Source: Liolophura sinensis (taxonomy: Eukaryota > Mollusca > Polyplacophora > Chitonida > Chitonidae). From it: 64,000 bases of DNA. Shown one piece after another: positions 16,594 to 63,154 of the stretch; within the stretch, counting starts at the first letter, position 1; each line of letters begins with the position of its first letter. The notes beneath the pieces are model-generated. The model worked only from the letters and a program-made list of their open reading frames with translations. It did no database searches and was not told the DNA's origin. Both the position numbers and the translations under genes were made by a program. Where the stretch lies: positions 55,539,187-55,603,186 of the forward strand of contig NC_088301.1 in NCBI RefSeq assembly GCF_032854445.1, given 5' to 3'.

Positions 16594-17084
16594 CTAAAAG
16601 TCAAATTCAACTTGTGCATCGGAAGAGCTTATATGCTTTTTCTTGGCAGGTATCGCCTTTCTCACCGCAGGTCTTCTCGCTCGCCGTTTACATTTATCAA
16701 ACCAGGCCTTCTGGCTTCCTGCAAACAAGGGAGATAACACTATGGACTCTCCGTAACCACTTTCCTTCAGATACCGTTCCAGGCTACCTCTGATGGAGCT
16801 TAAAGAACTGTGGGTATACTCCTCCCCGGACAAAGTTTTCACTGACAAGAAGAAGTCAGTCAGGTACTGATCCAGTTCGAACGGCGGGATATCTTCAATT
16901 GCCCTGAGATCACTGTATGGCTCCGCCTGAAGCCAGCTCTCGAACACGTTGATGCGGCACCTCATTCGCCTGTCGATATGCTGCAGTCGGCCTTGATGCA
17001 GGTTGCGTCGCACAGGCTGGATTCCTCGGTGAGTCGTTTTCGCAGAGCGCCTTGGTAAAGCTTCCATGACGTCATCTCCCACAT
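16594..17084 (-). CDS. Terminal exon C1, Crypton-type core-binding-like domain
   Basis: Acceptor CGTTTCTTTGCAG, phase 1, then 163 codons to the stop. Domain at residues 40-125: FESWL (48-52), IEDIPPFELDQYL (63-75), KTLSGEEY (83-90) and SIRGSLERYL (97-106). The order and spacing match the N-terminal part of Crypton-derived tyrosine-recombinase proteins, a small helical DNA-binding fold. No catalytic Arg-His-Arg-Tyr domain follows. The tail is basic (KCKRRARRP, KKKH), which suits nuclear entry or DNA contact. It is the last of eight C exons after A3-B3. A MITE-like element begins about 50 nt upstream of the acceptor. I saw no AATAAA within 300 nt after the stop. Confidence 0.78.
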
Positions 17085-17134
17085 CTGCAAAGAAACGAAG
17101 AAGTGAGATCAAAACATCTGTAACACAGATTTAT

Positions 17135-17492
17135 ACCCCTTTAAGACGGCCAAAATTGAAACCGGATCAAATGTGAACCGGCGTTCACACGACCATGTGG
17201 AGAAGCCGGTGTAAAGCCAGTTTAGGGAATTCCATACGGTCACATTTAAGCCGGTTTAGTAATTACGATGTCATCCTGACCTCCACATATCCGGAGCATT
17301 TAATCCAGTTGCCGTTCACGCGACACAGATAAACCGGCTAAAGACCTGAAAATGGTTTAAAGCTACGTCGCTAGCAGGGACAAATAAACCGGATTAAATG
17401 CCCCCGCTTTGCGTTCACACGAGCGAAGTGAAAGTGGCTCAAAACTACTTTCGGATTTAAGCCAGCTTAACTTTGCCCGTGTGGACCGGGTA
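17135..17492 (-). mobile_element. MITE-like element, copy 1
   Basis: A non-coding element full of AAGCCGGTTTA and GTTCACAC words. It matches the reverse complement of the element at 24582-24878, for example GGATTAAATGCCCCCGC here against GGGGGTATTTAATCC there. No ORF. Its ends are eroded compared with copy 2. Confidence 0.6.
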
Positions 17493-17520
17493 TTAGGAAA
17501 AGTTATCTATAAAGCATACA

Positions 17521-17757
17521 AGGGCCGAGATGGTTAGCACGCCAGCACGGAGCTAAAACCCAGAAACCTCCCACCAATGCGGTGGCTGTGAGTCCAAGTC
17601 CAGCTTATGTTGGCTTCCTCTCAGGCAATACGTGGGAAGGTCTTCCAACAACCTGAGAATGGTTGTGGTTTTCACCCCGGGCTCTGCCCGGTTCCCTCTC
17701 ACCACAATACGGGGTCGTATAAGTGAGATATTCTTGAGTGTGGAGTAAAACATCAGT
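17521..17757 (+). repeat. SINE family A, full copy
   Basis: Read on the plus strand from a tRNA-like head (GGGCCGAGATGGTTAGCAC) through GGCTGTGAGTCCAAGTCC and a body with CGGGCTCTGCCCGG to the tail ATTCTTGAGTGTGGAGTAAAA. It is in opposite orientation to the other copies in this window. Confidence 0.68.
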
Positions 17758-19044
17758 GATGTGGAGGACACTGGGATACCGGGAGTATACCACCAACCTT
17801 TGATAGGTAACTGCATGCCGGATGTTTTCACGTGTGACATACTGGTGGAAGGCAGGCCTCTCCAGAAACTGCATATGTAAGACAACACAAGAGAGAGCTG
17901 TCGATCTTATATGTCCATGTCGGAGACAGGCATTAATCCAAGGTTTCACGTGATCTAACAATGGAATGGCTAATACCTTAACCACGTGGTACTAATGCTG
18001 ACTCCCAGACTACAGTTTATTAGCCACTGAAAGGAGTCCAAATAAAGAGATTAGGCTAAAATATCGTTTAACGTTATATCGATATATCCACGAATGTGAA
18101 TGGCTGAAATGAGAATACTGTTGCGGGATTTAAGGAAGTAGGATACAAGAAATAAATTTAACGTAGGGAAATTTCATACATTCATGTTTTAATGAATTTT
18201 CACCGAAGTTTTGTTAAGATCGTACCATACTAGTTAATTTACCAAGTCAATATTTTCCAGTTTATTTATTCTCGTAGGCAGTTTTAAGCTTACGTTTATC
18301 TGTTTCATGATGTTGTTGTTGTTGTATCGGCGTTCCTACATATTTGGGATAATTAATACATTGCTGAAAGTATTTTGATGATAAAGTAGAAATTACGAAA
18401 TTCTATGGCATTGTCTTATCTGGAAAATCTTTACCTTCTATTTTCGTTCTTGTTTCACAGAAAATATGACATTTATTGTCCTCAGTCTAACCTCGAAAGC
18501 AGAAGTTTGTGTTGCCGCCATTTTTGTAACATTTGTGGTAATTAGGGTGTCTACAGAACCCGCACTTACAGGCTTTTAGAAATCGGACCAAAAAAGAAAT
18601 TTATCATTTAATACCCTTGTGTAGAAAATGGTTATACTTTTTGAGTAATATGGATAAAAATATGAACCTTTCAGACATCGGCATTTACATTTTGGCTTCA
18701 AAGTAAAGCCATTATTTTGGAGTTCTTGGTTGCGATCGTGATGACATCATCGTGTCATCTGTGTTTACAAACCGTCAATAATTGCTCTTCTGACAAATCA
18801 GAGTCTCCTGATTTGGTTCATTGCCCCGCCCACACAATCTATAAATATGCTGATTTTTCAGCATCTGCAGATGGCCTTGGAATCTGCCGAGAGTTGACAC
18901 TAAATTGCTGGTAAGCATTCTCAGTAAGTAGTTATTTTATTAAGAGTGGGAAAATTCTTGTACCGTGAATTGGGAAACAGTCCCAGTACTGGGAATAGTG
19001 ATTTGTGATCCACCCACGAAGCCGGGAATACAATGTCAAAAATC

Positions 19045-19416
19045 TGGGAATTTTCCCAGTCCCAAAATTCTGGGACTCTTCAGTCTCAAGATACCTGAGA
19101 ATCCAGCTCCAGCTCCTTGTTTTGATATCTCAAACAAGTTCCACTTGTTTGAGATATCAAAAGTGGATCACAGAGACTATATACCAGAATAAATCACCTG
19201 AACTTTGGTACTATCATTTGAGACGAGTCTCATGATACTTTTCCCAGTTCCAAAACTCTGGAACTCTCCAGTCGCACGAAACCTGAGAATCCAGCTCCAG
19301 TGTCATGCAAGTAGAAATTATCTGAGATGTCAAAAGTGGACCACAGAGACTATATACCAGAATAAATCAACTGAACTTTGGTACCATAATATGATACAAG
19401 AGTCTCATGAGACTTT
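19045..19416. repeat. Tandem duplication of about 188 bp with an internal hairpin
   Basis: Unit 1 (about 19051-19238) and unit 2 (about 19239-19416) share CTGAGAATCCAGCTCCAG, GACTATATACCAGAATAAAT and GAGTCTCATGA. Unit 1 contains a perfect 20-bp inverted repeat, 19120-19139 against 19143-19162, with a 3-nt loop. Unit 2 keeps only one arm in diverged form. Confidence 0.8.
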
Positions 19417-19429
19417 CTGTCCAATATGA

Positions 19430-21820
19430 CACTCAACTGGGACTCTGTCCCATATGACACTTAGCTGTACTATATGACACTCAACTATTGGGTTCTTGTG
19501 TCAACTGCTAGTTCCTCCCTCGTCATAATAAATATTCATCATCTGATTCACTGAAAATCTCTTGTTGGAGAACTTTCATTTCGTATAAGAATTTTGAATC
19601 TCATGTACAAGTCATACTGGATAACAGCCCGAGTTCAGGAAATGTTATAAAATCGGATTCAAAGAGTAATAGCGTCGCCGAGTTCAGGGGAGAGAATCCT
19701 GATTGGTTTATTCCTTTAAGAAGCTTCGCTCGGCACGTTAAATATCAAACAGGATTAAAGTGATTGAATGGTGTCGAACTCATGGGTACCTGTGTACTTG
19801 AGGAGAAGACACCATAAGAAATGAAAGCACTTAAGACAAATATGTCGGCCCACGGAGTTCGCTAAATTCTTAAACTGTGTCATGTTTATTGGATTGTAAT
19901 TATAGTTTTAAGATTATTGATTCCTTGTATACTTATATAAGATCTGATATATTAGGGGTTTGATGTTGCAAAATTCTGAGTCGAATACGGTATACCGAAT
20001 CGGTTTTCACTTTTCCAGTCCATACAGGTCAAGACGCACCTTTTGCTTTGAATGGCTATAGCAGATAATATTCTGCTTCGTGGATCTAAGACGCCCATCT
20101 GAAATATGATTGCCCTCTCGAAGATCAAAACAATGCAGCTGGCAGTTTTAGTCGCAGATATTTGACATGTTTATGCCAAACAATTGGTTAAGATTGCAAA
20201 ATTATGCCTCCGAACGCCCTCGATACAATTAGCATATAGGTGCAGATATCGTTTAGGTCTACTTCGCATGGGATACAATATCAACAGCCCTGATAATAGC
20301 TTCGCTACTATGGGGACACCTGAACACTTACAATTAAACACTGACGTAAATTGGCTGCGTGAAACTACTTGGCCGACTATCACACCATCGTCGCTATAGG
20401 GTAATCCGATATTGTATTACTGCACAAACGAGGATTCTGCTGGTGGACTTCATTGTTCTCAAGTTACTCTTTATTAAATGTAATGACAGCAGCGTTTTGA
20501 GTAATTCTATAATAACGTCTAATAAATTGCATTTAACACAAACATTTTTCTTTTACCTAAGCCGTTGCTATGGAGTCTATGTTGCTACTTTATATGCGTT
20601 CACATTAACAGTTAGACTAAAAACCTATATAACTGAGATCAACTGACAAGAGGCCGGCTTTCACCGGTTAGGGCCTACTTGTGACTATGTGGCTAATTAT
20701 TTACACAGTGGTCGCTGTTCTGTTTTACTCCCTGTGCTGTAGTATTTTACATTGTATTCCTACCTGAGCCGGAATTCTGCTGGTGCATTAAGCGTCCCCG
20801 TAACCTGGTCCTTTTGCATTGTTTTATGTACATGTATACTGAATGTGATAAAAACACAACATATTGAGTAATTTTAGATCATTGACGTAAAAAATTGCAA
20901 TTAAGACATTCCAAATTTTGTGTTTAAGTCATAGTTAGAGAGGGCGTGTACGTTGCTACTATTGTAAGTTTTTACATGAAGCTATAGAATAATACCCTAA
21001 ATGAGGAAAATTGACAAGAGGCCAGATTTCACCGATTACATGTGACCATTTGTCAACCATAACTGTCGTTGCTGCTCCACATGGGTTTACTGTTCAAGCC
21101 TTTAGTCTTTAATATGTTCACAATAATATGGTAAATAAAAATTGACATAGCACTATACAGTTACAACATATGCTGTTTTTTTCCTTAAGTCAAGTGTGCC
21201 GAGTAGATGGCATTGGTAACTGTCGCAACATACACCCGCAAACAGTAAAATATCGATTGTGTAAATATGTATATACAATCAGCAGGTCAACAATATGGCC
21301 ATGGCATTTAAGTTTAATTACGGCATAAAACAGTTATATATACATGCACATCAATGTATCAACAATGGAATATTTTCCGCAATGACATATGGGTGCACTT
21401 GGGATTTCTACTAAACTTCATGAATGAAAATGAACAGAAATCTGTAAAATAACGTATTCATGTACAAGGAACGGGAACTGATTGAGCATGCCGCTTCCAT
21501 GTGCATAGTAATGTTGCCCCGAACACAAACGAGAGAAGTCCTGCATGCCTAGGTCGTGCAGAAACGCTGGAGCCTGGGCTTAATTATACAATCCATTATC
21601 CACTGAACAGGTTTTTGTATTCACGGCTTTCTAGAAAACAAAGACTACAATTTTTGACATATTAATAAAAACGTTAGGGTAAATTATGACCAGCCTATAT
21701 CTGAATAGTTGGTTTTCCGAAAAAAAAATATATAGCCTGTTATAATTTTTTAGAGGCGTATTTTAATCGTGCCTCAAAGCTTTTTCGTGCTTTTTTCAAA
21801 CATTCTAGTAGATTATGTAT
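19430..21820. other. Non-coding, nothing recognised
   Basis: Intron or spacer between C2 and C1. No domain-encoding exon, SINE or transposon protein was recognised. Confidence 0.5.
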
Positions 21821-21825
21821 TGATT

Positions 21826-21935
21826 TATTTCATTTATGTTTTACGCCGTACTCAAGAATGTTTCACTCATACAATGGCGGCTAGAGTTATAGTGGGATGA
21901 AACCGGGCAGAACCCGGGGGAAACAGAGACGTCAC
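21826..21935 (-). repeat. SINE family A, 3' fragment
   Basis: The plus strand reads TTTTACGCCGTACTCAAGAA then GGGATGAAACCGGGCAGAAC; the tRNA-like head is missing. Confidence 0.65.
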
Positions 21936-22309
21936 AATAACAGCTATGCATCTGAATAATAGTTATATAACTGAGTTAACAGTGTTAAACGGAACATAAT
22001 CTTTTTCCAAAACTGAAGAAACGGTACAATACTCGACTTTGACCTGTACAAGGTCCATAATATTGTGGAAAATGAACTAAACCGTCCAAAACTTAATCTG
22101 TAAATCGTCATGGTGGTATAATATTCAGCTCGAAATTGATCAGTAAATCGTCAAGGTGAAGCACTGTAGGAAGTTTCAACTTAATTTGATGAAACATTTT
22201 GAAAAGTCTGCCAAACTGTCAATGCCCAAAGAGGATAAAAACGGCAATAATTGTGTCGAAAATGAACGATATGTACGACCCAAAACTAGACATTGGTCTG
22301 TGTGTATAT

Positions 22310-22765
22310 ATGTATGTATTCTTGAGGTTTTACGTTGTACTTAACAGTTTTCCAGTCATATGAAGTCGAGAAGTCATTAGGTGTGTGTGGTATAAACATG
22401 TTCTCACCACAGCATGGCAGAAATATTGTGGATGTGTCGTTAAGCCATAATCATTCACTCATTCATTCACTAGGTGTGTGAGTGTATACAGTGTATATTG
22501 TGTCTTCTTTCTAAAGTGCTGCCGCCACTGAAGTATTACGCCGAAAACATAAAGTATGACACCCCACACATCTGTCACATTACACTGACACCGGGCCAGC
22601 CAATCCAACCAGTCCTGTTTCCCTGCTCTACCTTTTTTAGCGCTATACGAGGCAGAAAAAAGTACCATTTTTTAAAAATCTTTGTTACGACCCGACCCGG
22701 GTTTGATCCAAGTCTCCCGACTTTAGGCTTAACCATTAGACCACCGAAACGGTCCTGTGTCATAT
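22310..22765 (-). repeat. Composite of SINE relics (families B and C)
   Basis: A decayed tail with GATGTGTCGTTAAGCC and ATTCACTCATTCATTCACT (22430-22470) resembles family C. It is followed by a family B copy (about 22478-22760) whose minus-strand head reads GGTGGTCTAATGGTTAAG with a B-box-like GGATCAAACCCGGG. Confidence 0.55.
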
Positions 22766-23558
22766 AAACTGACATAGGATCGAGGGGAAAAACTGTATCC
22801 CTTCCTCTACCGGTAGAATAATAACTGAGTTTTGAAAGAGGCAAATATAGGTAAATCTGCAATCTATCGTATACTTGATAATACACATTCACAACGGTAA
22901 TACATCAGAAATATATAGCTGTAAGGCTGCGTGTAGCGGTGATTGGTTTTGGGAAGCTTGATTTTATATTACTTTACTCTTTAAATATCTAGGAATACAG
23001 TAGTCAATGAAAATCTTCATGAAGGGTATTCAGGACATCACCAAACACCGAAAAATGTAATCTTCACTGCTTTCGGGCTTGTGATTGTTCAGTCATATCA
23101 CATTACAAGTCTATGGCGAGTCAATGCAGGTGTTGTACAAGCTATTATACCCCTTTGGTCCAGACAGCCGTCAGTTTCCTTAAAAACATCTCGTTTTGGC
23201 CTCAGTTGTACTACCTTAATTGAGACAGGCAACTGTTGGGTGATTTGTGTTGGATAAATTTCATTATCACCGGCAAATACATAGCGAATGTGCAAAGCGT
23301 CCAGATATCTTCCTGTATTCCTTAGGCGACGTATAGGCTCACATGTGCTGGGAAAACGGAAGTCACCTGACGGTCCACGTGGCGTACATCTCGTCATTTG
23401 TACGAAGAGCGCACAGAGATGAAGGTTTAATGGTGAGTAAAATCAGTATGTGCACACGTCCTCGGTACAGGTTTATGCTTGCTCAGTTTACCTTCAACTG
23501 ACATTTTTATTTTTGGTGCACGCTACAGTTAGCCCTTTATAAAAGGTACAAAATGTTT

Positions 23559-24013
23559 CTAATCTAAAAACTGCGGTTTCTCCCTGGACCTTAATTTGAG
23601 CTTTTGTCTCTCGTTCACTTTACACACCTCTAGCTTCTTTAGCCAAGCTGCCCGACTTTCTTTGAACATGTGCGAGGTTGTGATTGAATATGGATATTCT
23701 TGATCTCGAAGGTATCGCTCCAGGCTTCCGCGCAGAGCACACAGTGTGTTGTAACTGAATTCCTCTCCTGACTGAGTTTTCACCGTCACGAAGAAGTCGG
23801 CCAGATACTTGTCCAATTCGGCCGGAGGGATGTCCTCTATTGCTCTGGAATCCTTGTGAGTGCTAGTCTGTAGCCAACTCTCGAACGTGTTAATGCGAGA
23901 CCGTATTCTCCTATCCACATATCGTAGCCGATCCGCCCTCACATTTTTTCGGGGGGCGTAGGTCGTCCTTGACCTCGAGGTCGATGGTATGCCGGTAAGA
24001 GTATACTGGTCTC
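23559..24013 (-). CDS. Terminal exon C2, Crypton-type core-binding-like domain
   Basis: Acceptor GGTTCGTTGTAG, phase 1, then 151 codons to the stop. The domain (about residues 34-120) is close to the family consensus: FESWLQ, IEDIPPAELDKYLADFF, KTQSGEEF and LRGSLERYL, then a C-terminal helix with the conserved S-R-A-A-W pattern. The tail is short and lysine/arginine-rich (KLKLRSREK). A canonical AATAAA lies on the minus strand at 23511-23506, 48 nt after the stop, supporting its use as a 3' terminal exon. No catalytic recombinase domain follows. Confidence 0.8.
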
Positions 24014-24581
24014 CTACAACGAACCGAGCACAATGCATGGGTATAGTACACACCTTTAGTTTAATAGTATTCATTTATATTCCCAATCATCATAGGCAGA
24101 GATTGATATATCTATATGTATAGTTAAAATAAAGAATAAAACAAATATGCAAGATGTAAGCACGGATCAATGCGGTGATCCGATATTGATCTTTGCGTCC
24201 ACAAAATGAATCTGCACACAAAAATTTATCCAAATTGCACATTATTATGACCAATCAAAAGTACAGTATTCATTAAATATTCAACATTTATGCATGATTA
24301 TCCTCTCATTAGTTTTCGAGATAAGAACAGAGAGCAAGAAATCTGTGCCACTGACCCACAGAAATAGGTCTTGAAACACGCATCTTTTTGTCCAAATAGG
24401 GAAATAGTACCATCATCTGAACATTGCTAAGTGAAAGAAACAACTTTCGCCCAAGAACATTCAGCGAACAAACAGACGGTGTATGTCAATGGGAACAATG
24501 GCTATCAGCACCAAAACATGGCGTCCTCTGATGGTAGGCATGATTGCAGTGCTCGGGGTGAATGGGTAAGGCGAACTGTTT

Positions 24582-24878
24582 CCGTTCACACCAGCAAAGT
24601 TAAGCTGGTTTAACTTGCCAAAGTGGATTTGCGCCAGTTTCACGCCGCCCGCGTCAACGCAAAGTGGGGGTATTTAATCCTCCCCAGCTAGCGACGTGGC
24701 TTTAAGCCAGTTTCAGGGCTTGAGCGGGTTTATATGTGACCATGTGAACGGGTAATTCCCTGAACTGGCTTAAAACCGACTTGGCCATATGGTTGTGTGA
24801 ACGCACGCATTGTTACAACTGGGTTCGATTTAAACCAGTTCAGATTTGATCCGGTTTAAATATTTGCGGTGTGAACGG
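24582..24878 (+). mobile_element. MITE-like element, copy 2
   Basis: Bounded by a perfect 10-bp terminal inverted repeat, CCGTTCACAC (24582-24591) and GTGTGAACGG (24869-24878). It has internal AAGCCAGTTT and CTGGCTTAAA words and no ORF. Related to the element near 17.3 kb in inverted orientation. Confidence 0.68.
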
Positions 24879-24879
24879 C

Positions 24880-26640: not shown

Positions 26641-26641
26641 T

Positions 26642-27081
26642 TCAGGCGTCAAATTGAAGGTGAGTTAACTCGGATTCCTGTGCACATCTGGTGTTACCGA
26701 GTGAAGACAACTGTTTGATCTTTTGCCTGAAGGCTTGTTGGCTCTCATTAAATTCTGGTGCGGTGGTAATTGAAACAGGGTACCCATGGTCATCAAGAAA
26801 GCGCTTCAAGCTAGACCTTAAGCGGAAAAGCGATGTCTTGGTAAAGTCCTCGCCTGTTTGAGTTTTAATACTGGTGAAAAATCTCGCCAAATATCTGTCC
26901 AATACAGCAGGTTGGATGAGCTCAATTTTCACCATTTCAATAGGACTGTCTGCCTTAAGCCAGCGCTCGAAAACCCGGACGTGGTATCGTTGTACTCGCG
27001 GGAGATCTCTCAATCTGGCATCAGACACAGGAATCGACCAGTTGTAGTTCGTGGACGGAACATGTGTACACCCGGAAGAAA
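26642..27081 (-). CDS. Terminal exon C3, divergent domain copy
   Basis: The acceptor is most likely ATTTTCCTTGTAG, phase 1, giving 146 codons to the stop. The frame is open upstream of the first possible start, as expected of an exon. The domain is recognisable (FERWLK, LDRYLARFF, KTQTGEDF, LKRFL, YPVSIT), but the hallmark IEDIPPxEL is replaced by IELIQPAVL, the most divergent version in the array. A weak internal donor-like site (CTCG|GTAACA, also phase 1) lies after the domain, so read-on splicing cannot be excluded. AATAAA at 26155-26150, about 490 nt after the stop. Confidence 0.72.
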
Positions 27082-29123: not shown

Positions 29124-29752
29124 TCAATTGTCTGGCTTAGACTGTTCTTGTTCTTTGACAGATTTTTCCCGTGTTGGGTCTGTGATGGACAAGTCAGTAG
29201 GTTCTGACTGTTCCTCTATTGTATCATCACAAGTCTGGTCAATGGTTGTAGAACTCGCTGCTTCAGATTGTGCTGGCAATGACAGAGCAGAATTTCGGTC
29301 TGTGGTCGACAAATTGGTTGGCTCAGTTTGGCCTTGGTCTCGTTCTTGCAATGACTGAGCGAGAAACAGTGATCGAAGCCTTGCCTTTAAAGCCCGTAAT
29401 GACGGGGCAAAGACAGGAGAATGCACAATAGAAGCTGGGTATCCTTGATCCTTCAAGTACCGTTCTAAACTATTTCTCATGCGCAAGAGAGATTTACGGC
29501 TAAAATCTAAACCACTCTGTGTCTTAGCACTTGAGTAATACTGTGTAAGATATGTATCCAACTCAGGTGATGGTATCTCCTCAATAGGTCTGCAATCTTG
29601 AAACATTTCTTGCAACCATCTTTCAAATCCTTTTACATGGCAGCGCACAGTTTTACCCAAATGTTCAAGCCTGGACTCCTTAGGCCACAATGGTGCAGCA
29701 TTGGTCCTTAAAGGGGCATCCATGTGCTTCATTCCTCCTGCACGCATCAACT
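29124..29752 (-). CDS. Terminal exon C4 with CtBP-type motifs in its tail
   Basis: Acceptor TTTCGGTTGCAG, phase 1, then 209 codons, the longest C exon. Domain at residues 35-130: FERWLQ, IEEIPSPELDTYL, KTQSGLDF, MRNSLERYLKDQGYP. The extra tail of about 75 residues is acidic and S/T/E/Q-rich. It contains a nine-residue motif twice: EPTNLSTTD (core at 145-149; 29307-29321) and EPTDLSITD (core at 185-189; 29187-29201). PTDLS fits the PxDLS consensus bound by the co-repressor CtBP, and PTNLS is a close variant. If they function, this isoform could recruit a repressor to DNA. That is inference from short motifs. Confidence 0.8.
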
Positions 29753-30450: not shown

Positions 30451-30872
30451 TTAGCACTTTTTCAGTCTTTCACGAAATGCATATGAACTCAGGGGGAACA
30501 CTTCTGTATTAGTTATTGACTCTGGATACCCCTTATCTTTCAGGTAACGTTGTAGTGTTGCTCGGCGTCGAAGCAAGGACTTTTTTGTGAAATCCTCCCC
30601 ATTTTTTGTCTTTACTGAACTAAAGAAGTCAGCAAAATAACGGTCTAATTCGGCGGGGGTAATAGTCTCCATAGACCTGTGGTCATTGTATGGGGGACCT
30701 TGTATCCACCCTTCAAAAGATCTAACGTGGTAACGCACAGTCCTTTCAAAAGTAGTATCAGCTTTGGATTTAAAGGACTCCATAAATGAGACTGGTTGGT
30801 CTCCTATAGAACGTGTTCCCTCCATTGCATGATGTCCATAAATTCCAGCAGCTTGATTGGTGCCGGTCCATT
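30451..30872 (-). CDS. Terminal exon C5, Crypton-type core-binding-like domain
   Basis: Acceptor GTTTTGGTTGCAG, phase 1, then 140 codons. Domain: VRSFEGWIQ, METITPAELDRYFADFF (proline of the IPP core replaced), KTKNGEDF and TLQRYLKDKGYPESIT. The peptide ends right after the last helix (RERLKKC), so it has almost no tail. AATAAA at 30048-30043 on the minus strand, about 400 nt after the stop. It is 700 nt upstream of C4 in the same orientation, consistent with tandem duplication of a single exon plus flank. Confidence 0.78.
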
Positions 30873-31689: not shown

Positions 31690-32150
31690 TTAAGCCTTCT
31701 GCCCTGGAAAGAAAATGTCTTGTTCATCTGGGACTGTTTCTGTTGTCCCTAGTGCTATTGAGCGCAATCTTAGCCTGAAAGCCACTTGGCTTCTGAAGAA
31801 TTCACGAGAATGAGAAATGGACAATGGATAAGATATACTCTGAAGGTAGCGATCCAAACATGATCTTAACAAATAAAATGACTTTCTTGAAAAGTTTCCA
31901 CCAGTCTGTGTTTTAACAGCTGTGAAAAACTTTGCTAAATATTTGTCTAATTCAACAGGGGGGATATTCCCAATGTCTCTGAGCTCATTGAATGGTTTAG
32001 CCTGTATCCATCGCTGAAATGTCCGAATGCGACATCTTGTGCCACTGTCTATACTTTGGTTTTGTTGTGAAGAACCAGTAACCAGAGGAGACACCTGCCT
32101 TTGACTTGATTCGACAAGGATTGATTTCTTTGGCCAGTGCTCCCTGCTTT
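31690..32150 (-). CDS. Terminal exon C6, Crypton-type core-binding-like domain
   Basis: Acceptor TTTTGGTTTACAG, phase 1, then 153 codons. The coding start is upstream of the first in-frame valine codon at 32094, because the frame is open back to the acceptor. Domain: FQRWIQ, IGNIPPVELDKYLAKFF, KTQTGGNF, LRSCLDRYL, YPLSIS. The tail is acidic (PDEQDIFFPGQ). No canonical AATAAA was seen within 400 nt after the stop. Confidence 0.78.
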
Positions 32151-33563: not shown

Positions 33564-34033
33564 TCAGTTAATGTGAGCAATTGTCTGAGTTTGTGGTTCT
33601 GCCTCAGATGTGACTGCATTTCCTGTATCCACCCTTCCCACAGTAGCAATATTGAGAAGAGCAGCATGTTCAAGGAGACTCATTTTTGTTTTGTAGGCAA
33701 GTTTACTAGAGAGAAAGACATCTGAGTGGGTTATTGACTCTGGATAGTTTTGGTCTCTAAGATATCTCTCCAGGCTTGATCTCAAGCGACACAGAGATTT
33801 AGGAGTGAACTCCTCACCACTCTGTGTTTTGACCATAGGAAAAAAGTCTGCCAAGTAATTGTTAAGTTCAGGTGGTGGGATATCTTCAATAGGCCTGAAA
33901 TCACAATAGGGTTCACATTGTAGCCACCTCTCAAACACTTTTACATGACTTCGTAATCGCCTATCAATGCAGCTCAGCCGACCTTCCCCTTGGGGAGCCT
34001 TATGCTCTGGAATGCCACGAGTGAAGCAGGATT
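33564..34033 (-). CDS. Terminal exon C7, near-consensus domain copy
   Basis: Acceptor TATTTTGGTTGCAG, phase 1, then 156 codons. This copy is nearest to the family consensus: VKVFERWLQ, IEDIPPPELNNYLADFF, KTQSGEEF, LRSSLERYLRDQNYP, then FLSSKLAYKTKMSLL for the last helix. The tail of about 35 residues is T/A/Q-rich and unremarkable. In position it is the second C exon after A3-B3. Catalytic recombinase residues are not encoded. Confidence 0.82.
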
Positions 34034-34696: not shown

Positions 34697-35187
34697 CTAA
34701 CACTGGAGAGGCCTGTCAGATACTGCTACTCTGCTGCACTGTATCATCTGTTTCCTTCTTCTAAATGCAGTCTGACTTTTGGAGAAGACATTTGAGGATG
34801 TAATGGAGTGGGGATAGTTCTTTTCCCTGAGATGGCGCTCTAAACCAGATCGAAGGGCTCGAAGGGAATTATAGCCGTAATCTCCTTGATGATTTGACGT
34901 TACTGTGGAGAAGAATTGGGCAAGGTATAGATCCAACTCTGATGGGGGAATATCTTCTATTGGTCTGTTATCTGATGAGTAGTTAGTGCCAAGCCAACTT
35001 TCAAATTTTTTCACGTAACAGCGTGTTTGAATTTTTCGAAACTGAAGTCTTTTTTCCTCTTCATGTGATGTAAATCCAACTTCAAAATGTCCTTTTTCAG
35101 GGCGTATCAATGGGCTGTGTACAGGTGTGGGTTTATTGCTAAGCTCAACATGGCCCAGGACATCCCCGCAGCTCCCCAGCATCCTCC
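34697..35187 (-). CDS. Terminal exon C8, subgroup II domain
   Basis: Acceptor CCCATGACAACAG, weaker in pyrimidines than the others, phase 1, then 163 codons. It belongs to a second sequence subgroup with C9 and C12: FESWLG and IEDIPPSELDLYL are normal, but the KTQSGEEF segment becomes NHQGDYGYNSL and the helix reads GLERHL instead of SLERYL. The N-terminal third (about 55 residues) differs from all other C exons. It is the C exon nearest B3, 4.5 kb downstream of it. Confidence 0.78.
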
Positions 35188-39655: not shown

Positions 39656-40309
39656 CATTTTGATTGTTTCCCTGTCCAAGCCTGCTAGACACAAGATTAG
39701 ACGATGTTGACAGTGATGAAAAAGATTGCTCTGTAATTTCTGCTGCGATAACATCTGCATCCTGTCTTGCCTTCTCAGACAATTCTTGAGCCATGAGCAA
39801 GTCTATTTCATTGGAAACACTGTCTTCCTGGGTCAGTACAGTGTCCGTTTTGTCCGCCGTATCATTTAACCCAATAATGGACATCAGACTTTCATTAGCT
39901 GGGGCATCTTCAGGAGATGTGTCCTCAAATCTTTTCCGTTTGGCTGACTGAGGCTGTTCAGTATCAGAGTCAACAGTATAGGGATGTTTGCGACTGTCTG
40001 GATTATGCACATGTAAGCTTATAGGATAAACATCATCAGGTTCTTCCTTTATAACAAGGGGAGATAATCTAGCTGAAGTGCTGGATCTATTGTTAATTGG
40101 GGTTGAGCTCAACACAGGATGAACCTCGTCACCACTGTCTCTTGTAACTGTGGCAGGTCGAGTTAATGGAGGCTTTAGTGGGTGTGGAGTGGCTTTACGA
40201 CGATTAAAACTAGGTGTTCTTGGCTGAGACTTTAAAGCAAGTTCTTTGGCCAGAAGAGCACTTTTTATTCCTTTCAGCCATACTGGATCTGGTGTTTCAC
40301 CGGAGCAAT
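39656..40309 (-). CDS. Exon B3, linker exon of the A-B-C family
   Basis: An internal coding exon of 654 nt (same length as B1). Acceptor TTTTTCTGTAACAG and donor AAAATG|GTAAGTG are both phase 1. The peptide opens CSGETPDPVWLKGIKSALL. It continues with LVIKEEPDDVY (consensus SUMO-type site with acidic flank), ISLHVHN, a basic AKRKRFED cluster and NESLMSIIG, then EIDLLMAQELSEK, which fits the ubiquitin-interacting-motif pattern. It follows A3 by 1098 nt and precedes eight C exons whose acceptors all keep its frame. Not a family I can name. Inferred to be the common regulatory region of a set of nuclear proteins. Confidence 0.78.
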
Positions 40310-41407: not shown

Positions 41408-41574
41408 CTAAAGAAATTGAGCCTTTTAATTTGTATTCTGCTATCCTAAGATCCACCCAGACAGCAAACTGTGATAGGATGTCTGGCTCACTGCAGAGTT
41501 CTCCAATGATAGAGGCAAATTTGAACTGCACTCTCTCTAATGTCACACCCATGTCGTCCTGTCATCAATAATTG
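41408..41574 (-). CDS. Exon A3, first coding exon of the A-B-C family
   Basis: Acceptor TTTATGTTTTCAG, 22 nt before the ATG at 41552, and donor TTTAG|GTAAGAAC, phase 1. The coding part is again 145 nt and begins MGVTLERVQFKFASIIGEL, followed by CSEPDILSQFAVWVDLRI. The three A exons are nearly identical in protein sequence, far more conserved than the C exons. Joined to B3 the frame reads SISL-D-CSGETPDPVW. A 5' exon further right is required; a candidate is described at about 45.4 kb. Confidence 0.77.
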
Positions 41575-46234: not shown

Positions 46235-46500
46235 CTAAGGTGAAAAATAAAATAAATTATCACCTCATTAGGTGAAAAATCTCCTAATTAGGAAAAATTG
46301 ATTTGAGAGAAATATTACATAATTAGGACATAGATTTTTCTCCTAATGAGGAGTTATTTTCACCCAGTTAGGAGTTATTTTCACATTTTTAGCAGAAAAT
46401 TTCTATCTCCCATATAGGAGATATGACTTTGTCATAATTAGAAGTTAACATACGATAACCGTATCTCCTAAATAGGAGTTAACATTACCTTCTAATTAGG
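46235..46500. repeat. Cluster of imperfect palindromes around TCCTAATTAGGA
   Basis: Repeated self-complementary words occur at irregular spacing: CCTAATTAGG (46283-46292), CTCCTAATGAGGAG (46340-46353), ATCTCCCATATAGGAGAT (about 46405-46422) and ATCTCCTAAATAGGAG (46463-46478). It ends next to the integrase relic, so it may be that element's end or a separate satellite. Confidence 0.6.
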
Positions 46501-46556
46501 ATATACCGATTATGTACCTGCTTTTGATTTCAAATATAGTCTCTTACACATTAATA

Positions 46557-48514: not shown

Positions 48515-48519
48515 TACTA

Positions 48520-50780: not shown

Positions 50781-50784
50781 GTCA

Positions 50785-51345
50785 TTAACTTCTTTCAATG
50801 ACGTTCATACTTCCATACTCCTTGACAAGTTGTAAGATACAACCGCAAGTGTGCGCAACTAGTCGCCTTTCAAACCCCTTCATTTCTCCAAGATGTACTT
50901 CAACCTTTTGCACAGTAAGCAAGTCGGGGCCAGTACAAAATCTCAGAAACAGCTGCAGGTTTTCATCATCGAGCTCTTTCACATACCTTTTCGATAATTT
51001 AAAGACAGTTTCCTCTTGAAGTCCTCTTGATTCAGGAATTGTCAGAAGATCACAGACACCGGTATTCGTTAAGATGAACGACTGATAGGCTTCGTCAAGC
51101 TTTTCCTCGCTAATTTCCAGGTCTTCCAAGGCCTCCTTCCAACAATCTGCCACAAAACACGGTGATTGGATAATTACATTGCGGCCAATTTCTAGGACCA
51201 CAGCTGCTACGTTATCCGCGTTGATTTTTGTCCTATACTTGTAGGAATCGAGAGCCTCGAGAAGATCATCTTCATCTACCTTGCTCAAGTATTTCGTAGC
51301 GGTGTGAAACTTAGAAGAAAATTTATCTATTGTCTTTATTTCCAT
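50785..51345 (-). CDS. Intronless ORF with a HECT C-lobe-like end
   Basis: 186 codons from the ATG at 51345; the frame stays open for 8 codons further upstream. Residues 130-175 read LQLFLRFCTGPDLLTVQKV, then RRLVAHTCGCILQL, which matches the end of HECT-type ubiquitin ligases: F-x-T-G, then H-T-C with the thioester cysteine. The N-terminal 120 residues are helical in character and not recognised. It is far shorter than a complete HECT domain (about 350 residues), so it is a fragment, a transposon-captured gene, or a last exon whose upstream exons were not found. It sits among transposon relics. Whether it is expressed is unknown. Confidence 0.5.
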   Translation of the reverse strand: MEIKTIDKFSSKFHTATKYLSKVDEDDLLEALDSYKYRTKINADNVAAVVLEIGRNVIIQSPCFVADCWKEALEDLEISEEKLDEAYQSFILTNTGVCDLLTIPESRGLQEETVFKLSKRYVKELDDENLQLFLRFCTGPDLLTVQKVEVHLGEMKGFERRLVAHTCGCILQLVKEYGSMNVIERS

Positions 51346-51479
51346 AAGAAATTCATTCTTAATCTCCTTAAGTTAAATCATAGAAATGATATTTTATTGA
51401 TATTACAGAGCGTCAGTAATGTTTAGATGGGTGTTTAAAGGGTGGAGGGCCTTAAGCGGAGGTTTTCGAAGCTTTTGAC

Positions 51480-51975: not shown

Positions 51976-51979
51976 GTGC

Positions 51980-53720: not shown

Positions 53721-53726
53721 CCTGGA

Positions 53727-53935
53727 GCGTAAATATGTTTTACGCCGTACTCAAGGATATTTCACTTATACGACGGCCAATGGAGGGAGGAAACCGGTCA
53801 CAATCCGGGGAAAACCCACGACCGTCCGCAGTTTGTTGGCAGATCTTCTCACGTAGGGCCAGAGAGGAAGCCAGTATGAGGTGGACTTGAACTGACAGCG
53901 ATTTCATTAGTAAGAGGCTTCAGGGTCATTACCCA
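53727..53935 (-). repeat. SINE family A copy
   Basis: The plus strand reads TTTTACGCCGTACTCAAGGA, CACAATCCGGGGAAAACCC and GTGGACTTGAACTGACAGCG; the outermost tRNA-like head is lost. A 26-nt tail fragment of the same family is at 55294-55320. Confidence 0.7.
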
Positions 53936-53939
53936 AAAA

Positions 53940-55290: not shown

Positions 55291-55399
55291 GATTGATTGA
55301 TTGGTGTTTTACGCCGTAACCATAGAAACCATAATGGAAAACACATTCGGGAGATTATGTGAACTGTATGTAAGGACTATAACCAAAAATCTCCATGTT

Positions 55400-55836
55400 T
55401 CATGAACTATTTCTGAGGGACTTCATTCGTTTTCTGTATGCCAGCTGACTCTTAGGAAAGCTCAAGGACAAAGTCAGAGATGCAGGGTAGTTTACTGCTC
55501 GTAAATGTCTCTCCAGGCTGTCTCGTAATGACCGAAAGGAATTATGACCATATGCTGCGCCATTCTGTCGTGTAAGGTTCGTGAAGAAAGACTCCAAAAA
55601 CGTGTCCAGCTCTTCTGGAGGGATGTCCTCCATCTTTCTGTCATCCTTAAACTGTGATGTCGACAACCAGCTCTGGAACAGTTTAACGTGTCCAGCTGTT
55701 TTCCTTGCAGTATCCAACCTTCTCTCCCAGTGTTCTCGTGATCGTCTGGACTGGAAATAAAGAGGCTTTGAGACACTGCCTTCACTCACTGTTTCAGGCT
55801 CAGGTTCAGGATTCTTTAAAAGGCTCCACTGCGCTC
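55400..55836 (-). CDS. Terminal exon C9, subgroup II domain
   Basis: Acceptor CATCTATATTTTCAG, phase 1, then 145 codons. The frame is open from the acceptor through a run of P-E pairs (NPEPEPETVSEG) ahead of the first possible start codon. Domain: VKLFQSWLS, MEDIPPEELDTFLESFF, the subgroup II segment RQNGAAYGHNSF, and LRDSLERHL. AATAAA lies 147 nt after the stop (55253-55248). It is the last C exon of the right-hand unit, and the next family exon in transcription order is A3, 13.8 kb away. Confidence 0.78.
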
Positions 55837-56009
55837 CTGAAAATATAGATGGTACAAAAGTTGCTTCTTAAGTAGATGTAGATAAGATCTCGTGACACCC
55901 CCCTTATATGAATTATGCCGTCGAAACAGAAATCTTTCTCATTGAGGCGCATTTTTAACAAAATTTAACTTTTAAAAAGTATATATGCTTGGGATTTGTA
56001 TGTAGTACT

Positions 56010-56420
56010 TCACAATTATTCATTCATGTGACGACGAGGGGACATTAGATGTGTGTACATATACTGTGCATTCTTGTGGCAGGGCGAGTCCATGCCGGCG
56101 AAGGGCTTATGAATCATGCCGAAGACACCAGACATGACACTCTTTACGTCGTACTGACGACGAGCAGCTATTAGGTGCGTGTACATGTACTGTGTCTTCT
56201 TGCGGCAGGGCGAGTCCATGCCGGCAAAGTGCTGCCGCTACTGACGTATCTTGTCGAGACATCAGAGATGACACATCCACCCAGTTCTGTTTCCTTACTC
56301 TCCCCTCTTTTCAGAGCGCCAGGCGAGGTAGTAACAAGTACCATTTTTCAAGTCTTTGATCAGAGGTTTCCCCAACTTCGAATCGGACGCCCTTACCATA
56401 ATTAAGGCACCAAAGCGGTT
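56010..56420 (-). repeat. SINE family B with an internal duplication
   Basis: GGCAGGGCGAGTCCATGCCG occurs twice (near 56080 and 56207) within a repeat of about 120 bp. The right part reads on the minus strand from a decayed tRNA-like head (GCTTTGGTGCCTTAATTATG) and shares AGTACCATTTTT with the copy at 22.6 kb. Confidence 0.6.
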
Positions 56421-56429
56421 AGTATTGCA

Positions 56430-58120
56430 TATGTAGCAAGGAGTATGCCAGAAGTAAGAACTATTATATTTGGTGTACTTAGTACATAAGTTTCATTCTG
56501 TACATGTATGTACACAAGTATAGGCCTACAAGTTATTTGTGCTACATGACTATTTTTCACTCCATTCTTTGATAATTTGACCAGGCAAATATCAACACAC
56601 CATTGATATGTCTTCTAATCTCACATAACACGTAATACTGTATTTCCCCAATGAGAAGTTGTGTGTGACTGTCTACGTATACATATCTCCAAATTTTGCC
56701 ATCCAATCGATACCATATCATGTATCACCTGAGCTTCAAAAGAAATGTACATGAAGATTCTTCCGTTACAATGAAAAATACCAGCAATCTCATACAGTGA
56801 ACGTCACAGCATTCCAGGTAATGTCCCTTTGAACAAAGACGAAAGCGGACAGTTTCTCCGTTTGGCAGCATATATATCTGCGAACTACAAATATTAAATT
56901 CTAATACCACAGTAAAACTTATTTGCAATTCTTAACTTGGCACATGCAACTGATTGTAGATGTATGTTTAAAAACGATTCTTCATTGGAACGGTGTTGTA
57001 ATTCCTGCATGGTAAAATCATATAATTTATAAAAGCGTTTTATGTGTGGCGTAAATTAGTGACATTCGGCAGGTTATTGGTGAACTTTGCGACGTAATTT
57101 GTTAGCAAACAAACATCTTCTATCACACTTATGTAAGTGCCACATGCCTCTATCCTCAAAATTACTAAGGAATCAGTGGAATCTGAAATTTTTTTGTCCC
57201 ATACTGGAATTCAGATTTTGTTGAATCAACGGTTGATAGGCAAATGCCTTAACCCACATTACCCGCTCTCAATCAGGATGATAACTCATAAATGTAATAT
57301 TCTAATGAAGCAATTTTAATGAAAGGCAAATTATGTTTTTTAACATGCACCTATTTACATATAACTGCATGCCCCAGCTGCAGTCTTTATAATGTTGCGG
57401 TAAACTAATCATTCAAAAAAATAAACGGCAAAGCTTTTCAAACTTTTATTTTTTTATTTATTTCTCTTAGGTCAATTGACCAGAGAATTCAATAAAATTA
57501 TATTCAATAATATTGGTTTCCAGTGAAACGATGCTGCTGCAGTCAATTAAGACTCATTCTTTCATTTACAAAAACCTTCCTTAGGAAATAAAGTTTTCGA
57601 GAACATTCACAAAACATCTAAAATATTTCAAATCTTTTCCCTCGCAAGAATGCTCAATTATAGTCGTTTGTTACAAAGAACACTATAAAGCTGTGTAAAC
57701 TCCTTCGAACCATTTTAACCCATAGTATTATGCAGAGCGCACATTCTTTGATGAAGGTATAGTTATTTTTTTTCAATACTGCAGAGTAACACCACAGATG
57801 ATACTGGCCTAGAAATAATAAATCTTTTCCGACAATAAAAAAAGAAGAAGAATTTCTAGAGCTGCTCTTTAAAAATTCACCACCCAACAGTATGGCTAAG
57901 TATGTCTATATATGACTTTTTACAGCGTGGCTAACTTATAGTGTTCCACAACTGTTCTTCCTAAGTAAAATGTACAAGGGTTATATGTGTACATGTGCGT
58001 TCTGTTCTAGCCAATGATTCAATTCTCAGTCAATCACAGGACGTCCCTGTTCCATTTCTTAATAATACAAAAGTTCTTTTGCTGTGATACGCAATATTTT
58101 CTATACACATTCTTTACTGC
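56430..58120. other. Spacer between C10 and C9
   Basis: No exon recognised. Overlapping AATAAA words on the minus strand at about 57445-57465 could end C10 transcripts. Confidence 0.45.
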
Positions 58121-58122
58121 CA

Positions 58123-58640
58123 TTAAATAGTATTAATGGCGTCCACAGCATCCTTGCTGCTATCCTCTGTGGATTTACTTCCAACAGCTGGTAGCCTACA
58201 TGGTGTCTGTCCTTTTAGCATTTGTAGCTTCTTTTTAAACGCAATTCTTGCCAATGTAAATTGTGGAGAGAGTGTTATTGAACAGGGATAATCATGCTCC
58301 TTCAAGTAGCGCTCCAAGCTAGTCCTAAGGCGGACAAGAGAAGCTTTACTAAATTCCCCACCAGACTGAGTCTTTACAGTCAAGAAGAACTCCGCCAGAT
58401 ATGAAGACAGTTCATCAGGTGGTATTGAAGATATCTCTCGGTAGTCTTTGTATGGTTTGGATCGGATGAAACGCTCAAAGTTATTTATTCTAGATCGTTC
58501 ACTGCGGTAAATAACATTGAGTTTTTCTTGCAACAGTCGATCCTCGCTACCTCCTACTGACACTGATTTGGAATAAGCCCCCAGAGGAAGCGATTTTCGG
58601 CTCAATGTTGGTTTTCCGTAAGGCCTCGGCACATCCATGC
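58123..58640 (-). CDS. Terminal exon C10, Crypton-type core-binding-like domain
   Basis: Acceptor GTTTGGTTCCAG, phase 1, then 172 codons. The open frame extends upstream of the acceptor but loses similarity there. Domain: INNFERFIR, ISSIPPDELSSYLAEFF, KTQSGGEF, LRTSLERYLKEHDYP, FTLARIAFKKKLQML. The first tryptophan of the usual FxxWL is phenylalanine-isoleucine here. The tail is polar with a short acidic stretch (STEDSSKDAVD). Confidence 0.8.
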
Positions 58641-61270
58641 CTGGAACCAAACAATGAGAAAATATTACACACTCCACAAGAATTCCCTGACCACAACTCC
58701 ACTGGCCGGAACTAAATGGAAAATAAAGCAATACACTCAACAGCAGACTGCATGGTTCTAAATAGAAATGCAAGTGAGTACACCAGCACTGCCATTATGT
58801 TCACTGAAACACGGTTCCTTACGACCCTGTATCCATCCATTTTGAAACAAAAATCACATTGTTCTTCTCATTCACAGAAGTTTAGAATATACACTTACAG
58901 TTATTTATTTTCTATTCTCGATTTGGGTCATTTCTCAAACTAACACTATGAAGAGAAGCATCACCTTTTCATTACAGGAATTTGTATTACCAAAACCTTG
59001 GTTGAGTTGTTCATTATAAATTGGTTCCCTAAATCATTAATCATATATACATGTAGATCTATTACACACCACTATCAGTGGATCTCATGACACATACATC
59101 TATCTGGCAGTCAAATCCGGTCTCAGACATCCTTTAGAAGGTTTATGTATTTAGTTTCATTAAATCTGGCTCCGTAGATCTGAGCAAGAACAGCCTGAAG
59201 AGGCCGAATTTCACCAGTTACGTGTCCCTTTATGATACGTCATTGAAAGTGGTTCAGTAATTTTGGCAAAAGGTGGAAGAGGGGTCATTTAAATGTTAGG
59301 TATGACTTTTCAGTAAAGCAATTGCATAGTAAACAGTCCAGGAAAGAGAGATTATATGTTAAAACATGTAGTACTTGTAGTTCAAGATCTTTCGTTTGCA
59401 CCATTGCATAGGATGTAGAAACCCATAATACAAGGTTAACCCTATGATATGAGCAGCGTCAATAATGTTTTGTCACACATACATGCCGCTAGCACGAGCA
59501 TTTGCATGAGGTAATTACGTATCAGTGCTCTACACTGCTAGAACAAGAAGTAGAACTGGGCATGTCTCTGTTTAAGCAAACGCAGTGATTTAAACCAAAT
59601 AAAATGGACACAGTTACATACAACACTGTCCCACTGCACAAATCACTATAGTCACAGTGTCTGACAAATTTTGTAGAGGTGGCTGGCTAGCACTATATAG
59701 AACAGACAACACTCTACTAATAACGTAATCATATGGGCAACATTACCGCTATGAACTTCACAAACCAAAACCTATATTCATGTCGTATAAACTGACACTG
59801 CTAGCAGGTTAATTTCAGAAAAGGAGCTTCCAATCTGCACAATCTGCAATGAATAAACAGCGAACGATTTGATGGAGAATTACTGATCACGCAACAATAT
59901 CTTTCTTACAAGATAAAATATACGGGTACACACAAAGCGCACGCAGAATCACATTGTACATGTAAATACATGTGCGCGCAGCACACTGGTAATCATGCAC
60001 ACCTATATAGCACCACTTCCTGCCAACAATTAAATCAGGATGCTGTGTATTTCGAAGTCCCCATCCTTTGGTATATTCAGTTAAACTGTTTTTTCAACCC
60101 TACACTTCAGAGCATCTGTTTTGCTTTCTGCTAAATTCTTGAAAATAGAAATTGAAAGGGAAGTTTTTTAGGTTAATACTTATTTTATTGTTATCTTGTT
60201 ACCAAGTATATTTATCATTATGGTGTTACCAAGTATATTTCAATTACAGTAGCAGAGGTCAGTTTTATGGAGGGTGGTGAGAGGGGATTGATGTGCCAAC
60301 CCTTCCTGACAGAGGCACGGTTAAAGCAAGTGGATCACACAAATGCACCCTTATTGGCCTTTGATGATAAAAGCATGTCCTTATAACTTTCCCATCTATA
60401 TTTGTAGGTAATAATATATGTATACTGAGAGTACAGTAAATCATCGTATGTTTACCTAACTATCCTCCAACTAATTACCTTGCAGTAAAACTGTTGCGCA
60501 GGAGAGTGGAAAATCATCTCAAGTAATAGTATATAGATTTCACTCGATATTCCACCAACTTAGTATAAACAGGTGATGATTTCTTTGTGGTAAATTCCAT
60601 AAATACTATTTACTGCTTCCATAATGTCTTGTTACCGATAATATAATCCTAGAGGAATGGTTTTGCATCCAAAATGTCTCAAAATACATTCCCTCTCTTC
60701 CAGGAGTTTTCCAATCAGTTTCCCAGGCTTTAAAAGATTACCACTGAGTCCCACATCAATGTTGTCAATGTTAAAATCGGTCCAGCACTTCCGTAAATAT
60801 CAAATGAACAATATCACTGCTTGATTAAGATCAACGAAAAAAATCTGTTCCATTCTAAAGGCACACAAATTTAATGTGAAGTGGGGGCAAGTAGGATCGT
60901 TGGGCTCTTGACAATCAAGTGCAAAGTCGATCGTCAAAAGCTGAATGTGTACCTCTCTTAAACTGGTGTATAATTTTTCTTTATACACAAGAGTCACCTT
61001 GGATTTATTTGGAAAATGTCTTGAAAGACTAAAGACACTTTGGGCCTTCCAAGAGTGAAATTAACTGTATGTGCCTGAAAACTGTTATATCTAACTTTCT
61101 TCTTAATGACAAATTTTTTCAAGACATACAACCAACACTACTACATGTCATGCACCCATCCCTTGTTCCATACAACTTTTAAATATGGGTATACATGTAT
61201 ATGTATATGATTTGCACAATAGAGCAAAACCCACACTTCAACTGTAATGCTATCTAACCAAGTTCGGATC
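58641..61270. other. Spacer between C11 and C10
   Basis: No exon or repeat family recognised. An AATAAA at 61009-61004 on the minus strand lies 262 nt after the C11 stop. Confidence 0.5.
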
Positions 61271-61707
61271 TCAGGCAACTTGGTTTTTTCTGATCTTCTG
61301 AATTTTGGCATCTTCCATCTTTCTGAGAAATGCAAACTGGCTTCGGCGAAATCTAGGTGAAGATGAAATGGCTTCAGTGTAGCCTTGTGAACGAAGGTGA
61401 CGGTCCAAACTGTTTCTAACGGCAGTTAATGAGCTCACCGAGAACTCACAACCTTTGTTTGTCTTCACAACTGAGAAAAAGTTTGCCAAATACGTATCCA
61501 TTTCCTCCAAGGGAATATTCACAAGTTCACGACATTCATTAATTGGTTGGGATCTTAGCCAACGAACAAACAACCGGACTCGGCAGGCATCACTCTTATT
61601 AACTTTCTGTTGACTAGTTAGGTTGATTGAAGATATATATGAAACTTTGGACTGGTCACCATAGCCTTCAGCTGACGTTGGATAACATGTTGGTCTGTGT
61701 TGAAAAC
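61271..61707 (-). CDS. Terminal exon C11, divergent domain copy
   Basis: Acceptor TTATTTTGGTTCCAG, phase 1, then 145 codons. Domain: RLFVRWLR, LVNIPLEEMDTYLANFF (IPP and EL both altered), KTNKGCEF and VRNSLDRHLRSQGY, then FRRSQFAFLRKM. The helix ending RHL is otherwise typical of subgroup II, while the KT-x-x-G segment is subgroup I, so it looks intermediate. The end is basic (KIQKIRKNQ). Confidence 0.78.
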
Positions 61708-62738
61708 CTGGAACCAAAATAAGCTTAGTGAATTGATGGAGACACTGATTCCTCCTGCTCACATTTTACAGACAGTCACATTTTCACAGAGGAATGATTA
61801 TGCGCACGACAAGCCAGAGCAGCATAATTTTCACAATCCCAAATGTTCCTTATTTCATGACATACATATTTCTGTGTGTTCCGTGTCTGTCTGAAAGCAT
61901 AACTGTATACATTCTAAAACCCCATCTAGCCATCACAATATGCCCTCATGAATTGAAAAGACCTGCATCTCAAATATGCAGTGTTACTTGCCTCATAATT
62001 ACCATTATCTGAGCTGAAATAATATTTTTTGCTCAAAATTTCCTCACCAGATATTCCTTCTTATGATTTTTATACATATTTCCAATACACACTATACCTA
62101 CCACAGGCTGGGAAAAGTTAGGTAATTCTCATAAGATTGTGAATGCTTAGAAAAGCATGATATATAAAAGCAGCATCTTATCACAGATTATGTAAGGCTA
62201 CATGAAAATGGGTTTATTCTACATCACAAATATACCAAATGCAAACCACTATCATGTAATTTTCTTATTTATACAAGTACACATTCACAACTATTTCTTA
62301 CTGACATTTTTTTATTACTTTTTCAATAAAAGCTACACTGCAATAGACGTAGTTACAGAGCCATTCTCTTTCAGCTTCATCAGCATTTCAAAAGTTTAAT
62401 AATAAAAGATGAAACAGTGAACTCAAGGATCAAGTTTGTCTGTTAAGTAAGATTCAGCATGTGCCAAGTTTCAAATGATGTCATCCAACAATCGAACTCT
62501 TGAAGTCTATCCAAAATCCTTTGTAATTCTGCTCAATAAAAATTGGATTTTTGATCCATTGCGAAGACAAGAAGAAAGTAAAATATTGCACAGTCATCAG
62601 CTCGTACACATGCTTAAAAAAGCATATTGCCTCAAATACCACAAATATGCTGAAGATACATAAGTACATGTACAATGTAGGTGTGTATGTATCAACTGCA
62701 GCGATATCTGTACTACAAGTTTTTTACAGTATGTCATA

Positions 62739-63154
62739 TCACCTCCTCTTTCGAAAATTAAATGCCACTTGGCTTCTATAAAATAATGGTGAAGAACGTA
62801 TTTTGTACTGGTATCCTCTGGACAGCAAGTGGCGCTCTAATCCTGACCTCAAAGTGACCAGGGAATCAAAGCCGTACTTTCCCCCATCTTGTTTTGTTAC
62901 TGTGTTCCAAAATTTACAAAGGTAGACGTCCAACTCTGCTGGTGGTATGTCCTCAATGTTACGAGTTTCAAAGAACAAAGATGACGCCCAACGTTCAAAT
63001 GTTTTGACACAAGATACTATTCTTCTGATACTCTTTTGTCTTTCTTTTTCCAGTTTTACATGTTCGTGAATCTGGAAGTTGTCATTTTGTCCCACACACA
63101 GAGAAGTGAAATTAGCCGGGTAGCAATTCAGGGTAGAACCTTCAGGCCCTCCAC
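62739..63154 (-). CDS. Terminal exon C12, subgroup II domain
   Basis: Acceptor CCATTGCTTGCAG, phase 1, then 138 codons, the shortest C exon. Domain: VKTFERWAS, IEDIPPAELDVYLCKFW, the subgroup II segment KQDGGKYGFDSL, LRSGLERHLLSRGY and FYRSQVAF. It ends abruptly with RKRR, leaving no tail. AATAAA at 62316-62311, about 425 nt after the stop. It is the first C exon seen of the right-hand unit, so its A and B exons should lie right of 64 kb. A subgroup II copy is also first in the A3 unit (C8). Confidence 0.78.

Follow-up and report, generated by a model that had tools for sequence, protein, structure and literature searches.

Introduction

The nearest precedents for the locus described here are KIAA1958 and the Drosophila pair lola and mod(mdg4). 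In the passages of PMC3212892 cited here, vertebrate KIAA1958 is described as having two isoforms, a and b, whose DUF3504 domains, both derived from Cryptons, differ and are encoded in separate exons, the alternative splicing is stated not to have been confirmed experimentally, and no function had been reported for DUF3504 as of 2011. For lola, common 5´ exons are joined to many alternative 3´ exons, mostly encoding zinc fingers, in at least 20 isoforms (PMC1947980, passages cited), and mod(mdg4) also has common 5´ exons and many alternative 3´ exons (PMC12692577, passages cited). Here we analyze a 64-kb stretch of DNA (contig NC_088301.1; hereafter the window) from the chiton Liolophura sinensis, a marine mollusc. 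It holds start-codon exons (A), linker exons (B) and twelve exons (C) that each encode one copy of the same domain. We consider it likely that an A-B unit is spliced to one of several alternative terminal C exons and that the locus belongs to a large chiton gene family. A preliminary description of the window, made from the sequence alone, had this central idea right, while its single array of twelve exons and its statement that nothing similar was known need correction.

The chiton locus resembles KIAA1958 in having alternative exons within one gene, each with its own putative recombinase-derived domain, as in isoforms X3, X4 and X5 of NCBI LOC135471122 (see below); one chiton isoform is named 'KIAA1958 homolog' by NCBI. 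KIAA1958 has two such domains, whereas the chiton arrays carry isoform names up to X31, and the DUF3504 domain of KIAA1958b is given as ~287 residues (PMC3212892, passages cited), whereas each window exon encodes no more than a core-binding-like part of ~100. KIAA1958 is the qualifier needed by the statement that no locus of this type had been described. Like lola and mod(mdg4), the locus combines a common 5´ part with a choice of many alternative 3´ exons, which supports the likeness to these genes drawn in the preliminary description. However, the common part of lola is a BTB domain, whereas A and the start of B match no Pfam family, and the chiton variable part is mostly a recombinase-like domain, attached to 30 front parts rather than one.

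Results

Annotated alternative terminal exons at LOC135471122

All exons described here lie on the minus strand of the window. The coding part of exon A3 (41408..41552) runs from the ATG to a phase-1 donor and encodes the conserved A domain of 48 amino acids, identical to the N-terminus of the LOC135471122 isoforms. Exon B3 (39656..40309), in phase 1 at both ends, encodes a linker that is predicted to be disordered and carries the motifs VIKEEP and SLMSIIG; the exon is present in isoforms X3-X5. A splice model joining A3-B3 to the C exon at 33564..34033, for which 115 proteins passed an expectation value (E) of 0.001 in the search, agrees with isoform X3 of L. sinensis at 422 of 422 residues. 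Isoforms X4 and X5 share this A3-B3 front but end in other C exons, 31690..32150 (X4) and 23559..24013 (X5). Because X3, X4 and X5 share A3-B3 and differ in the C exon, terminal-exon choice is annotated at this locus, for three of the eight C exons downstream of A3-B3, as the preliminary description had proposed. For these three the NCBI proteins use exactly the predicted phase-1 acceptor and stop. The P0001 cluster consists of four member sequences, which perhaps include isoforms X1 and X2, unlisted in the search.

Conservation of the C exons

All twelve C exons have intact frames, of 148-232 codons when measured from the stop that precedes them, and their alignment shows a single domain family, which bears out the earlier claim of twelve same-strand exons with one domain copy and their own stop. 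In each, an acceptor and a variable leader precede a single domain of ~85-100 residues, and a stop ends the frame. Apart from the three used by X3-X5, they were placed by frame, alignment and acceptor and are absent from the retrieved NCBI proteins. Five of these are downstream of A3-B3: 34697..35187, the first after B3; 30451..30872; 29124..29752, in which a long tail follows the domain; 26642..27081; and 16594..17084, the last of the eight. Four are upstream, at 62739..63154, 61271..61707, 58123..58640 and 55400..55836, with a front part that would fall outside the window.

When the best acceptor upstream of the domain was picked without regard to phase, it was in phase 1 in 11 of the 12 exons; in the twelfth, 26642..27081, the phase-1 acceptor at 27081 ranks second. 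A phase-1 acceptor on each C exon is thus well founded. The further claim that no clear donor follows the domain holds for 11 frames, in which no donor scoring ≥2 was found (two of these had ≤6 nucleotides left to scan), 16594..17084 being the exception, with a fair donor at 16665 (score 4.6) past the domain. The test is a soft one, given scores of 0.6-6.7 for the A and B donors in the window itself. The spacing of AATAAA polyadenylation signals gave no support at the window's C exons (p 0.14). Identities among the twelve exons at codon positions 1, 2 and 3 are 0.53, 0.60 and 0.33, as expected for a protein under selection. The C exons also appear old, since protein identity to the nearest copy in the window is only 40-52%.

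Two points weigh most heavily against use of the whole array: the isoforms are annotated gene models, not reads, and nine of the 12 C exons (five of the eight downstream and all four upstream) share no 20-residue stretch with the 117 retrieved NCBI proteins. Most C exons may therefore be silent, the three annotated ones being used and the others being unused relics of tandem duplication; exons B1 and B2 of the window likewise have no 20-residue stretch in common with any of the 117. Such an array would sit poorly with the intact frames, conserved domains and acceptors and third-position-biased differences of all twelve exons and with the age of the copies, and exons used only at certain stages may escape sampling of five tissues (PMC11068029). 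We therefore regard a mostly silent array as unlikely, and infer that the five other downstream C exons are also used as terminal exons of A3-B3.

A single switch point across the family

The family set comprises the 117 retrieved proteins, all from L. sinensis, and the counts that follow are counts of these proteins. Grouping by identical first 100 residues gave 30 front parts, four on the 60.36 Mb contig that holds the A3-B3 locus and 26 on the 27.49 Mb contig. The 18 groups with several members (105 proteins) each diverge at a single switch point, with a spread of ≤3 residues. The switch residue is encoded by GNN in 98 of the 105 proteins, against a background of 29%, and all members have GNN in 16 of the 18 groups. 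The exceptions are g04 (none of six), which accounts for six of the seven misses and in which a split codon is perhaps shared within the group, and g14 (one of two without GNN). Beyond the switch, none of 6786 pairs of tails among the 117 proteins share a 25-mer (single-member groups being represented by their last 130 residues), a figure that is helped by the database, because clustering at 90% identity removes near-identical tails. NCBI isoform names reach X31 at LOC135463552 and X19 at LOC135463632.

The C domain is present in 104 of the 117 proteins and none of the 104 carries two copies; several C exons in one mRNA, which the preliminary description had named as contradicting its idea, are thus not seen among the annotated proteins. 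Some of the other tails are C2H2 fingers, CENP-B-like helix-turn-helix domains or weak BEN matches, some of them on the 27.49 Mb contig. Given that NCBI models are computed and that the loci are tandem and similar, a gene predictor could have falsely chained neighboring genes or fragments to one front part. We consider such an artifact very improbable, as the switch point at a split G codon recurs in all members of 16 groups, and tails without a C domain (for example, the CENP-B-like P0105) switch where their locus mates do.

All 102 matches in a search with the A domain were from L. sinensis and none from another species, the number of other chitons in the database being not known. A search for the C domain in other species (P0029 335-445) returned only the query, one of 77 candidates, by a word method that could miss distant relatives.

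Predicted identity of the C domain

In models, the C domain resembles the core-binding domain of tyrosine recombinases, with a predicted four-helix core-binding fold and with the Cre core-binding domain and QRICH1 (Zincore) among the likenesses. QRICH1 and Zincore are linked in the passages of PMC13383152 cited here and in the title of PDB 9hjt, and after re-alignment the C domain matches PDB 9hjt chain H 471-596 best in structure. The likeness to QRICH1 extends to Pfam, as PF25561 is the sole family at E ≤0.01 among 40 family proteins, 11 of which match; precomputed PF25561.2 is carried by eight of 115 paralogues. The window exons differ in falling below the curated PF25561 cut-off of 30.8 bits, the best reaching 25.1 bits; at E up to 1, 11 of the 12 match, 29124..29752 being without a match. 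QRICH1 is one protein and is not known to be an exon array. Sequence searches of the PDB gave nothing for one C exon or for P0101, and one match (E 0.36) for the family profile.

No catalytic domain with an R-H-R-Y set follows the C domain in any of the 12 window frames. There is no room for one, because, counted from residue 90 of the domain, a stop lies within 243 nucleotides in all 12. Elsewhere in the family, P0101 (LOC135463632 isoform X1) has a 275-residue tail past the C domain, perhaps a remnant of the catalytic part of a recombinase; the idea that its end is a full recombinase-like domain, suggested by eye from motifs, received no support from Pfam and PDB sequence searches.

Plant ALOG proteins offer a parallel, in that the N-terminal DNA-binding domain of a recombinase was recruited as a predicted transcription-factor domain (PMC3537659, passages cited). 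ALOG has a zinc-ribbon insert (HxxxC, CxC), whereas no conserved Cys/His insert was seen by eye in the alignment of the 12 C exons. The preliminary description had called the variable part a recombinase-derived, Crypton-like core-binding domain. The modeled likeness upholds the first part, at the level of prediction, and descent from Crypton in particular is an unproven candidate. Independent Crypton insertions as the source of the C exons were rejected, since the exons share strand and phase.

The A and B exons

There are three A exons in the window and three B exons, the latter in phase 1 at both ends. Besides A3, the A exons are A2 (9615..9759) and A1 (1152..1296); in all three the coding part runs from an ATG to a phase-1 donor that follows a G. 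The A domain is nearly invariant over the family, and differences between A3 and A2 are mostly silent, with nonsynonymous divergence (dN) of 0.041 and synonymous divergence (dS) of 0.88 (dS of the A1 pairs was not computable). Its predicted fold is two helices, at moderate confidence (predicted local distance difference test, pLDDT, of 58-83 for the block), and B is predicted to be disordered. The A exons with the start of B (A1, A2 and A3) matched no Pfam family at E up to 5; B3 had no Pfam match, B2 only a sub-threshold MipZ match, and B1 was scanned at its start only. A strict hydrophobic-K-x-E-P motif, which is VIKEEP in B3 and which we take to resemble a SUMO site, occurs in 19 of the 30 front parts.

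Exon B2 (7799..9088) is about twice the length of B1 (200..853) or B3, and its phase-1 donor is weak (score 0.6). Because this donor sits just ahead of an in-frame stop, B2 is perhaps also a terminal exon, in which case A2-B2 may encode a protein without a C domain. The C exons of B1 would fall past the window end.

Layout and evolution of the window

Along the gene strand, the order is four C exons, A3-B3, eight C exons, A2-B2, A1-B1 and the window end. The twelve C exons do not, as first described, form one array behind A3-B3: only eight are downstream of it, and four, at 55400-63154, are upstream. These four either require another front part or are orphans. Trans-splicing, by which >30 mod(mdg4) isoforms are made (PMC12692577, passages cited), would explain them if each C exon had a promoter of its own and its transcript were attached in trans to A-B, as A3-B3 could then use upstream exons; a neighboring front part beyond position 64000 would explain them too. 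No front part for these exons lies in the window upstream of A3, and on a tree of the C exons two of them, 61271..61707 and 58123..58640, share a supported set with ten rows from the A3-B3 locus. However, A-B and all 12 C exons share a strand, the upstream four are missing from the retrieved proteins, and the tandem A-B units suggest that these four belong to a neighboring unit. We thus hold trans-splicing to be quite unlikely; on the simplest reading, A-B is spliced in cis to a single terminal C exon that has its own 3´ end.

On the same tree, in which only 12 of 110 forks were resolved (starred), C exons tend to group by locus, with 42 label changes compared to a shuffled mean of 85.5 and none of 200 shuffles as low. 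For this count we ourselves assigned the eight downstream window exons to the A3-B3 locus, and P0001-P0003 bring in three of these exons a second time. The upstream four do not cluster together. The tree fits local exon duplication plus duplication of whole A-B-C units, and the three A-B units in 64 kb point in the same direction as the latter.

We also noted dispersed repeats, 76-80% alike and in both orientations, at 2328-2431, 11348-11451 and 21820-21923, and at 11417-11569 and 53780-53932, with an inverted copy at 17523-17680; these may represent one or two families of mobile elements dispersed among the exons. Local direct repeats of two copies, 84-89% alike, are found at 19051-19400 and 56029-56233. 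Between the upstream C exons and A3, a 195-codon frame on the minus strand (50785-51372) has a weak, sub-threshold match to a HECT ubiquitin ligase (E 0.0065). When ten other frames of the window were compared with Pfam, nine had no match and one had a sub-threshold HECT match; Rfam and tRNA scans of the window found nothing.

Discussion

In the mechanism that we propose, start-codon exon A and linker exon B would be joined to one alternative terminal exon at a phase-1 junction that follows a G. Each C exon would have its own stop and 3´ end, such that the choice of acceptor and polyadenylation site would set the C end of the protein. The A domain would form a short conserved helical hairpin, probably for self-association or partner binding, and B a disordered linker bearing the SUMO-like motif. 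The C domain, as a putative domesticated core-binding domain of a tyrosine recombinase, may direct each isoform to a distinct DNA or protein target, presumably in the nucleus. One scaffold would thus acquire many recognition ends through cis splicing and alternative polyadenylation.

KIAA1958, lola, mod(mdg4), QRICH1 and ALOG each share one part of this arrangement. The combination at chiton scale was not found among the titles and passages listed, a scope outside which subscription journals and preprints fall. The main texts of two chiton genome papers do not mention Crypton. Neither Crypton nor tyrosine recombinase is named in the main text of PMC10027918, which surveys transcription factors of transposon origin across metazoans, including molluscs.

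More tentatively, and with more doubt than we attach to terminal-exon choice itself, we suggest that these loci form a recognition repertoire of the chiton. At least 30 front parts on two contigs, with one helical A scaffold and >100 terminal exons, mostly domesticated core-binding domains, might supply combinatorial factors that bind DNA or zinc-finger proteins, combining lola-like logic with the scale of KRAB zinc-finger clusters and possibly serving to silence mobile elements. If true, this would be a further route by which an animal has obtained a large set of recognition factors, beside zinc-finger clusters and BTB loci such as lola. It would also provide a natural test bed for domesticated recombinase domains, with dozens of copies on identical front ends that differ in the C end alone.
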